A DNA stretch of 42,125 nucleotides, taken from positions 1 through 42,125 of the forward strand of contig SBGP01000019.1 of the NCBI GenBank assembly GCA_006226595.1. The letters are read 5' to 3'. Positions 29,764 to 42,017 of the stretch are shown piece after piece. Position 1 is the first letter of the stretch. Each line of letters opens with the position of its first letter. The stretch is from Deltaproteobacteria bacterium (GTDB lineage: Bacteria > Myxococcota_A > UBA796 > GCA-2862545). Below the pieces are notes generated by a model. It searched no databases and was not told where the DNA came from. It saw nothing but the letters and a program-made list of their open reading frames with translations. Made by a program: the position numbers and the translations under genes.

Positions 29764-32280
29764 TCAGCTCCTGCGTTCTGCCGCTCTGGCATGGCCCTCC
29801 AGACCCTCGAGTCGAGCCAGGGCGACGCAATCGCCCACCAGTGCTGCACTGGGCTGCAACCGAAGCTGGGTCTGGACCCGCAGGAAGGAGAGAACGCTCA
29901 AACCTCCGAAGCTGCGCGCCGCCCCTCCGGTCGGGAGCACGTGGTTCGGGCCCGCCCCGTAGTCGCCAAGGACCTCCGCGGCGCCGGAACCGACGAACAG
30001 GGCCCCGTACTCGGTGAGCTGCGACTCCAGGGCCTCCGCGCCGGGCCCCTGAAGCTCGAGGTGCTCGGGAGCCAGGCGATTCGCGAGCTCGGCGGCCTCG
30101 TCCCAGGACGACGCCAGGATCGCTCGCCCGGCGGTGCACAGCGCAGCCTCGGCCGTGTCCCGGGTGGGCAGTACCGACAACTGCTCGCGAAGCGCCTCGT
30201 CGACGGCATCGAGCAGGGCCGCGTCGGTCGCGATGACCGTGACCCGCGCGTCCGGATCGTGCTCGGCCTGCGCGAGCAGGTCGGCGGCAATCACGCCCGC
30301 ATCCGCATCGTCCGCGACGACGAGCAGCTCGCTCGGCCCGGCGGGTAGGTCGATGGCCACGCGTCCACTCACCGCCTGCTTGGCGGCGGTCACGAAGCGA
30401 TTGCCCGGGCCCACGATGATGTCGCAGGCCGGGACCTCGCCGGCCCCGAAGGCGAGCGCGCCCACCGCCTGGGCGCCCCCCACCGCGAGGAAGCCATCCG
30501 CGCCGGCCACCGCCGCCGCCGCCAGGGTCACCGCCGTCGGTCGTGGGGAGGCCACCCACACCTCGCGCACGCCGGCAACGCGCGCCGTCACCGCGGTCAT
30601 CAGCACGCTCGACGGCAGCGGGAAGCGCCCGCCCGGTGCATAGCAACCAGCCCGCTCGACCGGCTGCAGCCGCGCGCTCGCCGTGCCCCCGTCGATGGGA
30701 AGGCTGGCCCCGGCCAGGCCCTCGCGCTGGGCCTGGGCAAACGTTCGAATGCGATCGGCGGTGCGCCGCAGCACGTCCTGCTGCTCGCGGGGAAGGCTGT
30801 CGAGCGCCGCCTGGAGCACGTCCTTGCCAAGCACCACGTCGTCCCCGGCCTTCGCGTCGCCAAACTGCTCCGCGAACCGGCGGACCGCGGGCATGCCCTC
30901 GCGCTCCACCGCTTCCAGGATGGGGCGAACCGCCGCCGCAGCGCTCGGATCCACCGGATCGACGCGCTCGAGGCGCACCTCTTCGGGCTCCACCCGGCGC
31001 AGGGCCTGGAACACGGGCGCCTCGGGCTCGGGCTTCGCATCCCCCTTGCGGCGGGTGGTCTTGCGCGCGCGTCGGTCGAGCACGGCCTCCACATCGGCGA
31101 AGGTCACGCCGGCCCGCGCCATGGCGACCGCCGCGAAGTAGGCCACGTCCGCCGCTTCCCAAGCCACATCCTCGACCGTCTCGGCCTCGGCGAGCTCCTT
31201 CGCCTCTTCGACCAGCTTCTTGCCGAGCAGCACCGGGTCGTCGAGCAGCCGACGCGTGTAGCTCCCGACCGGCGCGTCACTCACCCGGCTCGCGAGCGTG
31301 CGCTCCAGCTGGCCGAAGCCTCGGTCGGGGCCAAAGCAGCTGCGGGTCTCGAGGTGGCAGAAGGCCCCGGCCTGGCGCACCTCGAAGGCGAGCGCATCGC
31401 GGTCGCAGTCGACGCGGACGCGCAGCAGCTTCTGGGTGTTGCCGGAGGTCTCGCCCTTGCGCCACAGCCCGCGCTTGCGGCTCTGATACACGCCAGTGCC
31501 GGTGCGCAGTGCCTCGGCCAGGCTCTCGCGGCTCGAGTAGCAGAGTCCGAGCGCCACCCCGCGCTCGTCGGTGACCACCGTCGGAAACAGGCCGTCCGGG
31601 CGGTCGCTGACGAGCGGGGCCGCGAAGGCCTCGCCCAGATCCATGCGGCCCGAGTACAGGGCCATGCCGACCTGCGCCTCCGCTCCGAGCCGATCGAGCG
31701 CCGCCACCTCGTCGACGGTGGTGATACCGCCGGCGATGGTCACCCGCGCCTTGCCGGCCGCCGCGACCAGCGCCTCGACCTGGTCGAGGTTGGTGCCGCC
31801 GAGGCGCCCCTCGCGCTCGACGAAAGTAACGAGGAAGCCGCCGCACAGGCCCTCCAGCGCCTTCATGCGCTCGAGGATGCTGGCGCCTGTCTTCGTCTGC
31901 CAGCCCTCGACGACGACCTCGCCATCCACGGCGTCCAGCGCGACGATCACGCGCTCGGGGGGCAGCTGGCGCAGCAAGTCGGGCCTGGCCGCGGTGCCGA
32001 TGACGATCTTCGCCACGCCGCGGTCGAGCCAGGCACGCGCCGCCTCGACCGAGCGGATGCCGCCGCCCACGCGCACTTCCGCGCGCTTGGAGACGGCCTC
32101 GATGAGTGCAGTGTTCTCGCCCTTGCCGAGGGCGGCGTCGAGGTCGACCACGGCCACCTCGCCGACGATGCCGAAGCGGTCGGCCCACGCGAGCGGGTCG
32201 CCGGCCTCGATGGCGAGATCCTTGCCGCCGACGAGCTGGACGGCCTGGCCGCCCTGGATGTCGATGCTGGGGACGATCAT
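29764..32280 (-). CDS. hisA-hisI-hisE-hisD: Four-domain histidine enzyme HisA-HisI-HisE-HisD
   Basis: 838 residues in one uninterrupted frame; start at 32280 behind GGAG, overlapping the hisHF stop (ATGA). HisA isomerase covers 1-222 (D7, D116 in [12 protein letters not shown] at 72-74). HisI cyclohydrolase covers 224-318 with [16 protein letters not shown] (291-295), CH at 308-309 and RSCFG. HisE pyrophosphatase covers 322-408 with [10 protein letters not shown] and [10 protein letters not shown] charged linker (408-425) leads to HisD histidinol dehydrogenase, 425-838, with [15 protein letters not shown], the zinc ligands in AQAEHD, the catalytic pair in LAPEHLEL and [10 protein letters not shown]. 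Fungal HIS4 has the HisI-E-D order; here HisA is added in front. It covers steps 2, 3, 4 and the last two oxidations. Confidence 0.95.
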
Positions 32281-38241: not shown

Positions 38242-38539
38242 CGCGCTCGACGCCACCGCGTCGCTGTTCTCGGTGCTCGCCCACCCGGGTCGACTCGGGG
38301 TCCTGCACACCCTGTACGTCGAGGAGTGCATGTCGGTGAGCGAGCTGACCGAGCGCCTCGGCGTTGAACAGAGCGCGATGTCCCACCAGCTCCGCATCCT
38401 TCGCGACGCACGGCTGGTCATCGCCGAGCGCGACGGTCGACACAGCCGCTATCGCCTCGCAGACGCCCACGTGGCCCGCATCGTCGAGGACGCGATGGCG
38501 CACGTGACCGAGGTCATTCCCGAGACAGTTCCACGGTGA
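38225..38539 (+). CDS. ArsR/SmtB-family zinc-responsive repressor
   Basis: 104 residues from ATG 38225, overlapping the exporter's His-rich tail in another frame. Winged helix with recognition helix QSAMSHQLRILRDARLV (49-65). The C-terminal helix carries D80, H82, H93 and E96, exactly the spacing of the alpha5 zinc site of SmtB (D104/H106/H117/E120). Cysteines typical of a CadC/ArsR site are lacking. It should leave the operator at 37278-37301 when zinc binds, switching on the exporter and itself. Confidence 0.9.
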   Translation: MTTSTDALDATASLFSVLAHPGRLGVLHTLYVEECMSVSELTERLGVEQSAMSHQLRILRDARLVIAERDGRHSRYRLADAHVARIVEDAMAHVTEVIPETVPR

Positions 38540-38729
38540 CCAGTCGTGGCGGACCCGGGTTGATGCGCACCCGGATCTCCACGTCCTCCCCGAAATCGCG
38601 CCGGATCGCCGAGGCCAATCGCTCGCCTTCTCGCTCGGTCGGCACGGACAGGCTCACGCTGAAAAGCACGGCTCTCTCGGCAATGCGAGCCAATCGCGCC
38701 AGGACCATCGCGTCATCTACGGCACTCAT
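38514..38729 (-). CDS. Small hypothetical protein
   Basis: 71 residues from ATG 38729, with GGAG eight bases upstream. Predicted helix, then strand (RAVLFSVSLSVPTEREGERLASAIRRDFG), then strands (VEIRVRINPGPPRLVTVEL). The balance of residues looks like a real folded small protein. It is convergent with the repressor gene, overlapping its 3' end by 26 bp. Family unknown. Confidence 0.5.
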   Translation of the reverse strand: MSAVDDAMVLARLARIAERAVLFSVSLSVPTEREGERLASAIRRDFGEDVEIRVRINPGPPRLVTVELSRE

Positions 38730-38779: not shown

Positions 38780-40144
<1,365 letters not shown>

Positions 40145-40146
40145 GG

Positions 40147-40410
40147 TCACGAACGCACCGGCGCGAAGCGGCACTCCACCAGCTTCAGTTCGTCACCGGC
40201 GTGAACACGAACGTCCACGCCGTCGATGTTGAGGTCGAAGAGACACGCGGAGAGCACCGCGCGCAGCTCGTCCTGCCGCTCGGGTGAGCTGACCAGCACC
40301 TCTTCCAAGAACCGGGGCGCGTGACGCTCGACCTCGCCGAGAACCTCGACGGCAAGACGCGACGCGATGCGATGAACAGTGTCCGACTGCACGACGGGTG
40401 TGCGGTGCAT
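40147..40410 (-). CDS. Small hypothetical protein, predicted sigma-54 target
   Basis: 87 residues from ATG 40410 behind GGAGG. Mostly helical and soluble (VQSDTVHRIASRLAVEVLGEVERHAPRFLEEVL), ending in a short strand pair. No known family. It ends 2 bp from the stop of the convergent NtrC-type gene. A -24/-12 promoter match (40449-40432) puts the message start about 12 bases before the ATG, right at the ribosome site, so the spacing is realistic. Confidence 0.7.
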   Translation of the reverse strand: MHRTPVVQSDTVHRIASRLAVEVLGEVERHAPRFLEEVLVSSPERQDELRAVLSACLFDLNIDGVDVRVHAGDELKLVECRFAPVRS

Positions 40411-40431
40411 GGCGACCTCCGTGGTCGACGG

Positions 40432-40449
40432 TTGCAAGTGCTGGGCCAA
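40432..40449 (-). promoter_or_regulatory. Sigma-54 promoter of the small gene
   Basis: Reads TTGGCCC then TTGCAA, with GG (40447-40446), exactly ten bases, and GC (40435-40434). It matches 11 of 13 consensus positions. The predicted start of transcription is near 40422. Confidence 0.75.
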
Positions 40450-40475
40450 GCGAAAACCCGCTGTCCACCGCGCAG

Positions 40476-40518
40476 CACACCGTTGCGGTGTGGGTGTTCC
40501 CCCACTTGTGTGGGGGAA
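40476..40518. promoter_or_regulatory. Tandem inverted repeats, candidate NtrC-type enhancer
   Basis: Repeat 1 (40476-40492): CACACCG-TTG-CGGTGTG. Repeat 2 (40497-40518): 9-bp arms TTCCCCCAC and GTGGGGGAA with a 4-base centre. A third half-site CACACCG follows at 40523-40529. They lie 54-96 bp behind the leftward sigma-54 start and about 150-195 bp behind the rightward one, normal distances for activator binding. Confidence 0.6.
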
Positions 40519-40529
40519 ATTACACACCG

Positions 40530-40643
40530 ACCTCCCCGCTCCTTCGATACCGCGGGCTCACTCGGGCCCTGAGATGACGAAAAGACGTGTTTTCACCAGC
40601 ATCTCTGTGCGCCCTCCACCCCGGGAGGCGCACCTCCTCTCTC
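40530..40643. other. Remainder of the divergent gap
   Basis: No coding region and no further clear motif. It completes the 262-bp gap 40411-40672 between the divergent pair. Confidence 0.5.
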
Positions 40644-40660
40644 CCGGCACGACCGTTGCT
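40644..40660 (+). promoter_or_regulatory. Sigma-54 promoter of the TauE/SafE-like gene
   Basis: GGCACG (40646-40651), four bases, TTGCT (40656-40660). GG and GC are exactly ten bases apart and only one consensus base is missed (T before GG). The predicted start, about 40671, is two bases before the ATG, implying a nearly leaderless message. Confidence 0.75.
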
Positions 40661-40672
40661 AGAGCCCAAGGC

Positions 40673-41305
40673 ATGACACTCGCACCGCTCGTCGCCGCTC
40701 TGCTCGCCGGTCTCGCCGGTTCCCCTCACTGCGTGGGCATGTGCGGCCCGTTCGCCGCCGCCGCCAGCCGCGAGACCAGCTCCGGTGTGGCGTGGCACGT
40801 CGGCCGCCTGGTCACCTACGCGAGCCTCGGCATCCTCGCAGGCACCCTGGGAGAGGCACTCCCCGCCGGCACGTGGATCGCTCGCGGCGTGGCCACCGTG
40901 CTGCTCGTCGGGTTCGCCGCCCGCCTCGCCGGGCTGCTGCCCGAGGTGCACCTGTCGCATCTGCCCGGGCTTCGCGGTGCCCTCGGCTGGGCCGCGAAGC
41001 GCAGGGGTCCGCTCGGCGGCTTCCTGTTCGGCGGCCTGTCCGGGCTCATGCCCTGCGGCCTCGTGTACGCCGCTCTCGCGGTGCCCGTGGCCAGCGCCGA
41101 CCCGCTCGTGGGAGGCCTGAGTATGATCGCCTTCGGTCTCGGCACCATCCCGCTGCTCGCCATGCTCAGCGGGGCTGCACAGAAGCTGATGGCCCACAGC
41201 AAGTGGGCACGGTACGCGGTGGCAGCCCTGGTCCTCGTCAGCGGGCTGTCGGCCATCGCCCACCGCGAGCCGCCCCCGCCGAACGAGGCTCCCGCCTGCC
41301 ACTGA
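40673..41305 (+). CDS. TauE/SafE (UreH-like) family membrane protein
   Basis: 210 residues, six predicted helices. It opens LAPLVAALLAGLAGSPHCVGMCGPF, whose HCxGMCGP motif (19-26) is the signature of the group near cytochrome oxidase assembly (ccoI/ccoS) genes. A second motif GLSGLMPCGLVYAAL has another conserved Cys. The Cys pairs suggest metal or thiol handling, such as copper delivery or redox transport across the membrane. Substrate unproven. A sigma-54 promoter match stands directly upstream. The C-terminus ends Pro/Glu-Ala-Cys-His. Confidence 0.85.
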   Translation: MTLAPLVAALLAGLAGSPHCVGMCGPFAAAASRETSSGVAWHVGRLVTYASLGILAGTLGEALPAGTWIARGVATVLLVGFAARLAGLLPEVHLSHLPGLRGALGWAAKRRGPLGGFLFGGLSGLMPCGLVYAALAVPVASADPLVGGLSMIAFGLGTIPLLAMLSGAAQKLMAHSKWARYAVAALVLVSGLSAIAHREPPPPNEAPACH

Positions 41306-41312
41306 GGCTCGC

Positions 41313-42017
41313 CTGAACCGCGCCACCGACCTCCTCGACGACCACCGCGACCTGGAGCGCGCCGTCCGCGATGTGCGCTGGGCCGTGTTCGACCGGTGCA
41401 TGGCCGATGCGCGCGCCGCCTGGGCGTGGCTCGTCCCCCTTCTCCGCGCCCACCTGGCCTTCGAAGAGCAGGCGCTGCTCCCACGCTACGAGAGCCTCGG
41501 CGAGTTCCCTCCCAACGCCTCGCCGCGCGTGTTCCGTCGCGATCACCGGCTGATCCTCGAGGCGATCGACGCGGTGGAGCTGGACGGCGACCGGGTGGCG
41601 CTGTGTGACGCGCTCGCCAAGCTCGAAGGCGTGCTCGAACACCACGATCTGCGCGAGGCCGAGCACTTCAAGCCCCGCCTCGACGCGGCCTTCGACGACC
41701 TCGGCGAGGACCTCGCGAGGTGGGCCGAGACCCGGGCCTCGCTGGGCAGCTGTCCGACGCGCGCCCACGAGCGCGAGGAGCTGGCTCCCCCACCCTTTTG
41801 GGGTGACGCCCTGGCCGAGGCCCGGCACGCGCTGGCCTGGGGAGACGTGGGGACCGCGGAGGCCCGACTCGCGGGGCTCGACACCGACGGGCACCCCAAG
41901 GCGCGACGCCACGCCACCACCGCGCTGCGCTGCCTGCAGCACGGGTCGCCCCTCGAGGCCTGGGACAAGCTGAAGCTACTCGCCATCCTCGCCGCGCATC
42001 CGCCGAGGTCGACCTAG
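41313..42017 (+). CDS. Hemerythrin-like HHE protein with probable CTG start
   Basis: 234 residues if read from CTG 41313, which has GAGG five bases upstream. The first ordinary start is GTG 41373, but that would remove H11. With the CTG start the full hemerythrin set is present: H11 (DDHRDLE), H47 and E51 (HLAFE), H78 (RRDHRL), H111 and E115 (HDLRE). This binds a di-iron centre that senses or carries oxygen, NO or similar. Residues 150-234 are an extra helical domain. It lies 7 bp after the TauE/SafE-like gene and is probably co-transcribed, putting it in the putative sigma-54 regulon. Confidence 0.8.
   Translation: MNRATDLLDDHRDLERAVRDVRWAVFDRCMADARAAWAWLVPLLRAHLAFEEQALLPRYESLGEFPPNASPRVFRRDHRLILEAIDAVELDGDRVALCDALAKLEGVLEHHDLREAEHFKPRLDAAFDDLGEDLARWAETRASLGSCPTRAHEREELAPPPFWGDALAEARHALAWGDVGTAEARLAGLDTDGHPKARRHATTALRCLQHGSPLEAWDKLKLLAILAAHPPRST

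Follow-up and report, generated by a model that had tools for sequence, protein, structure and literature searches.

A predicted divergent sigma-54 control region beside an NtrC-type regulator gene, a probable node of a low-oxygen respiration regulon

NmpR of Myxococcus xanthus is a sigma-54-dependent regulator of the NtrC type that binds the palindrome GCGCA-N5-TGCGC, and its targets, which are induced in hypoxia, include the cbb3 oxidase, a USP, hemN-hemerythrin and a CBS protein; another member of the system, NmpU, is a protoglobin kinase (PMC11841059). NmpR of M. xanthus receives its phosphate only from NmpS, which is itself phosphorylated by NmpU (PMC6211767). In this study we analysed a locus that resembles this system in several respects. 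It lies in contig SBGP01000019.1 (42,125 nucleotides, here called the window), which is one whole contig of the 7.23-Mb, 117-contig assembly GCA_006226595.1 of a Deltaproteobacteria bacterium. The element in question is a 262-bp gap between the gene of an 87-residue protein (40147-40410, minus strand, ATG at 40410) and a gene of the DsbD_2 family (ATG at 40673, plus strand), with an NtrC-type regulator gene close by. Comparison with related genomes makes it highly probable that the gap is the shared control region of an NtrC-type low-oxygen respiration regulon, in which the neighbouring regulator would act at both promoters. The gap is probably also an oxygen-controlled switch, with oxygen as its presumed signal.

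Each side of the gap carries a predicted sigma-54 promoter. The plus-strand site, CGGCACGACCGTTGCT (40645-40660), lies 14 nucleotides before the ATG of the DsbD_2 and hemerythrin genes, and the minus-strand site, TGGCCCAGCACTTGCA (40448-40433), lies 24 nucleotides before the ATG of the 87-residue protein. Both have the GG-N10-GC core in a TGGCACG-N4-TTGCW context, the first base of the plus site being C and not T, and the genome has a single rpoN gene. When an approximate matrix, written from the general -24/-12 consensus, was scored on both strands of the window, these two outward-facing sites ranked first (15.1, plus) and second (15.0, minus), and the third-best score was 13.5. First-order Markov simulations give an expectation of 0.25 sites scoring at least 15 per 42 kb, so that two such sites in one small gap are far beyond chance. 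A sequence-only reading of the window had proposed just these two outward matches with exact spacing and had thought their chance occurrence in one gap unlikely, and our analysis bears it out on both points. It had also remarked that one match misses a consensus base; this is the C of the plus site, a substitution that is usual here, as CGGCACG starts six of seven related small-gene promoters in other genera.

Between the promoters are two 18-bp palindromes which we predict to be enhancer sites, GTGTGGGTGTTCCCCCAC at 40488-40505 and GTGGGGGAAATTACACAC at 40510-40527. They are 22 bp apart, and the distance from the pair to the minus promoter is about 60 bp, as against 138 bp on the plus side; an extra partial dyad, CACACC-GTTGC-GGTGTG (40476-40492), overlaps the enhancer. 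The inverted repeats of the sequence-only reading are therefore real but were placed slightly off, at 40476-40518. In promoters from the activator and cbb3 neighbourhoods of the host's order, which were selected for having a sigma-54 site, even-spaced TGTG-N8-CACA dyads are enriched (23 of 53), and the palindromic matrix reached 10.8 bits, shuffled sets giving 6.6-7.0. A held-out matrix, trained without the window, the host's own cbb3 promoter and the sister genome, has the consensus gTGTGcGatatCgCACAc, with a site-pair spacing that peaks at 22 bp. Over the whole window its best two matches are the second palindrome (18.5) and the first (14.4), and the best site pair scores 32.8 in the gap against 10.8 outside it. 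Class-mates outside the training set also carry TGTG sites.

A search for the same repeats elsewhere in the genome, which the sequence-only reading had proposed, finds the same pair before usp-ccoNOQPGHIS and at other candidate promoters. Over the 7.2 Mb of the genome the pattern GTGN4TTCCCCCAC is matched exactly at four places, of which two are in the gap and one is upstream of usp-ccoN on another contig (C18). At the latter a second near-copy lies 22 bp beyond the exact match, the sites being arranged as direct copies, and a sigma-54 site, TGGCACAGATGCTGCT, lies about 23 nucleotides before usp. The same region of C18 encodes a Protoglobin-PAS-histidine kinase (29936-31387, minus strand), the USP, and ccoN, O, Q, P, G, H-like, I and S. 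A one-mismatch pattern search alone gave no enrichment over control in the genome, and for that reason only a paired-site model and the exact matches were used. This model was built from other genomes, including two sister-species promoters but nothing from the host genome, and its E-values are rough. It finds ten distinct places at 14.8 bits or above in the host genome, eight of which have a nearby sigma-54 site as against a background of about 2%. Among the eight are the gap, the usp-cco promoter, a sulfide:quinone reductase (NCBIfam SQR_III_seleno), an acetate-CoA ligase, a DUF892 protein and a divergent gene pair on C37. Of the remaining two, one lies at the 3' end of hemN and the other at that of a CBS-domain gene; both genes have a sigma-54-like site before their start.

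The pairs at hemN and the CBS-domain gene (C18:51156-51195, loci L270 and L294; C103:98033, L292) are possibly enhancers that act from downstream. The C37 locus (L301) has a second divergent sigma-54 pair, at 1334 on the minus and 1633 on the plus strand, with an enhancer site at 1517, and the gene on one side codes for a lipoprotein that weakly resembles multihaem cytochromes. The gene of an MBL-fold protein resembling sulfur dioxygenases is preceded by a single, high-scoring enhancer site (20.3), at C87:24573 (L144), and by a weaker sigma-54 site.

The regulator gene beside the gap (38780-40144, plus strand) encodes 454 residues. By Pfam and conserved residues the protein has the domains of an NtrC-type activator, with a receiver containing the conserved Asp53, an AAA+ sigma-54 interaction domain in which the GAFTGA-like loop reads GAFTDA (217-222), and a Fis-type helix-turn-helix (HTH_8). 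Identification as NtrC, ZraR or AtoC was rejected, as no NCBIfam equivalog cut-off was reached. Orthologs of the activator are present in 38 of 58 genomes of the order at 57-82% identity, paralogs reaching at most 47%, and most of the ortholog loci are surrounded by a globin kinase, ccoNOQPGHIS, DsbD_2, USP and a small gene. Of the 38 genomes that have the activator, 31 also encode the globin kinase, which is absent from all 20 that lack the activator (P 5e-10). The host's globin kinase is 68% identical to that of the sister genome (G001), in which the genes for the activator, DsbD_2, the globin kinase, USP and cco form one contiguous run. Across the order, sigma-54 sites scoring at least 13 precede ccoN (16/17), the small gene (7/7), a CRP-type gene (6/6) and DsbD_2 (5/9) but only 15 of 174 other genes (P 2e-22). 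The paired enhancer site, too, recurs ahead of the cbb3 genes throughout the order. Divergent sigma-54 pairs are common, either between the activator and a small gene or DsbD_2 (the f2 family) or between a small gene and USP around one site (L044). These patterns suggest that the cbb3 oxidase is the main conserved target of the regulator and that its partner is likely to be the Protoglobin-PAS-histidine kinase beside the host's cbb3 operon.

The sequence-only reading had further proposed a shared enhancer under the control of the neighbouring NtrC-type regulator. Comparative evidence, namely the held-out motif, its recurrence in the genome, the order-wide conservation of promoters and paired sites, the regulator clade, the kinase and oxidase linkage and the single RpoN, argues for that proposal. 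The three genes it had named as the regulon, for the unknown 87-residue protein, a TauE/SafE-like membrane protein and a hemerythrin, appear rather to form a single node in what is probably a sigma-54 regulon for low oxygen, and the membrane protein belongs to Pfam DsbD_2.

In six loci from other families of the order (L046, L050, L058, L065, L068 and L072) the CRP-type regulator gene is divergent from the activator, and in addition to its sigma-54 promoter mostly has an enhancer site, which suggests a cascade. One genome (G026) has three activator-clade copies in different neighbourhoods (L054, L077 and L078).

Several observations weigh against reading the gap as a shared control region of this regulon. 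The host's kinase and cbb3 operon are on C18 and not on the activator's contig, so that their linkage to the activator rests on relatives and on the shared sites. The sister genome does not have the 87-residue gene at the corresponding place. The plus promoter, with the C of its -12 element 14 nucleotides from the ATG, would give an almost leaderless mRNA that starts within about 3 nucleotides of the start codon, a leader of 1-3 nucleotides. It might be argued from this last point that only one promoter works and that the plus match is decorative, but we think this unlikely, since similar promoter-to-start distances occur elsewhere in the set, at ccoN in L060 and a small gene in L074, and the site is kept in the sister genome, which has a sigma-54 site before its own DsbD_2 gene.

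It is no more likely, in our judgement, that the locus is simply the orthologous Myxococcus NmpR system with the same regulon in another bacterium. The globin kinase, the NtrC-type regulator, the use of sigma-54 and the overlapping targets do match the published NmpR regulon. However, in a phylogenetic tree whose sample did not include M. xanthus NmpR itself, the host's regulator falls in a clade, including three class-mates, that is separated at 100/100 from the globin-linked (NmpR-type) regulators of other members of the phylum, taken from gene content to be Myxococcota. Members of the host clade all have GAFTDA or GSFTDA, whereas the NmpR-type group has GAFTGA or GSFTGA and perfect NmpR boxes in the intergenic regions of several of its loci. 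In the order, near-matches to the NmpR box were found in only 2 of 70 promoters, and there are none in the window's gap. An NmpS-like kinase, sought with a class-mate query, had no match at E 1e-45 in any genome of the order that was searched, although it is present in three class-mates. Other lineages (L259, L260 and L269) likewise have kinase-regulator pairs without NmpS, and the loss of NmpS is therefore not unique to the order.

The genome encodes other sigma-54 activators as well (12 matches at E 1e-80), and this too counts against the neighbouring regulator, as one of them could bind the palindromes in place of its product. We regard this as improbable, because promoters near the orthologous activator have the motif throughout the order, and so do those of class-level relatives outside the training set. 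That the palindromes form an RNA hairpin, as a terminator or attenuator, is scarcely credible: the strand folds well (z -3.4), but there is no terminator-like site and no Rfam match, and the direct copies at the cbb3 promoter could not form a large hairpin. A GC-rich genome of 7 Mb does contain chance occurrences of short motifs, but the rank, orientation and conservation of the two sigma-54 matches and their pairing with an enhancer leave almost no room for such an origin here.

If the gap is the shared control region that we propose, low oxygen would act through the globin kinase to bring about phosphorylation of the regulator, which might then bind both palindromes as a higher oligomer. Looping of the DNA would allow it to activate RpoN polymerase at both outward promoters, one leading to the 87-residue protein and the other to the DsbD_2 protein and the hemerythrin. 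The DNA binding, the phosphotransfer, the oxygen signal and the sign of the response are steps that we infer; induction is most likely to occur at low oxygen. The DsbD_2 membrane protein (PF13386, E 3.7e-33; 40673-41305, plus strand) is, by Pfam and neighbourhood comparison, one of the proteins encoded around the cbb3 genes in the order and probably has a role in copper or thiol handling for cbb3 assembly, which would fit the proposed physiology. The oxygen binding expected of the hemerythrin-domain protein (41313-42017, plus strand; PF01814, E 1.5e-07, matching from profile position 32) would fit it too. Gene calls were made with a simple script, and the first in-frame ATG, GTG or TTG of the hemerythrin gene is at 41373, downstream of the first His motif (DDHRDLE, in 41304-41373). 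The CTG at 41313, which is preceded by GAGG and lies directly past the DsbD_2 stop, may be the true start and would include this motif.

The 87-residue protein has no Pfam or NCBIfam match, in agreement with the sequence-only reading, which had called it unknown; it can now be placed in a small family associated with the regulon. A family hidden Markov model (HMM), made from relatives without the 87-residue protein, finds it at E 0.0013, and finds at 7e-06 a 71-residue protein (38514-38729, minus strand) encoded upstream of the activator and divergent from it, which alignment also identifies as a second member and which matches the family HMM at E 3.7e-06. When the profile of the small family was compared with the 87-residue protein by hhalign there was no significant match, but the enlarged family HMM gave one. 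Those family members with detected promoters mostly have a sigma-54 site together with an enhancer site. The family is one of small alpha-beta-alpha-beta-beta proteins, and the structure of the 87-residue protein is predicted with confidence (AlphaFold predicted local distance difference test score 90.7). Its fold resembles the N-terminal domain of HypA (5aun; 1.7 A over 66 columns, probability 0.99, with a weak E of 0.12). Identification as HypA was rejected and the likeness is one of fold only, as HypA has a zinc-binding domain whereas this protein of 87 residues has none, and the defining metal sites are missing, the family alignment showing neither conserved ligands nor a conserved His at the N-terminus.

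In its general arrangement the gap is like other shared divergent regions controlled by NtrC-family enhancer-binding proteins, with the same domain plan, paired upstream sites and -24/-12 promoters on both sides. Its closest likeness is to NmpRSTU, with which it shares a protoglobin kinase (NmpU-like, present in the host genome and linked to the regulator in relatives), an NtrC-type sigma-54 regulator and paired palindromic enhancers. The targets are also alike: the cbb3 oxidase with its copper ATPase, USP and hemerythrin carry sites here, and hemN and the CBS protein are weaker candidates whose sites are at the 3' ends. No NmpT double-receiver protein was called beside the kinase on C18, the genome as a whole not having been searched for one. 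The host's operator, TGTGYG-N4-CRCACA repeated at 22 bp, differs from the GCGCA-N5-TGCGC of NmpR, and we found no description of it in the literature; the recognition-helix region, RRKIQYRLKE in the NmpR-type group, is also different in the host clade. A small-protein family has been added here, and the order's kinase has a PAS domain that is extra even by comparison with AfGcHK, the globin-coupled oxygen-sensor histidine kinase of Anaeromyxobacter sp. Fw109-5, which is likewise a protoglobin-histidine kinase. Direct phosphorylation of the regulator by the order's kinase would require that this kinase either respond to oxygen in the reverse sense to AfGcHK and NmpU or act as a phosphatase in air, and the extra PAS domain may contribute to such a change. 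The analysis gives an uncharacterised regulator, found across the order, a DNA code and a candidate regulon of cbb3 oxidase, USP, hemerythrin, DsbD_2, a sulfide:quinone reductase-like protein, DUF892 and the small family. We put forward tentatively, as a proposition whose chances are a little short of even, that these regulators are a second, so far undescribed lineage of globin-kinase-linked sigma-54 regulators, which runs low-oxygen respiration in this order, has an operator code of its own and does without the NmpS relay. This raises two testable questions, how a globin sensor kinase runs a similar regulon with and without that relay, and how the operator has changed in spite of the overlap in target genes between the two systems.
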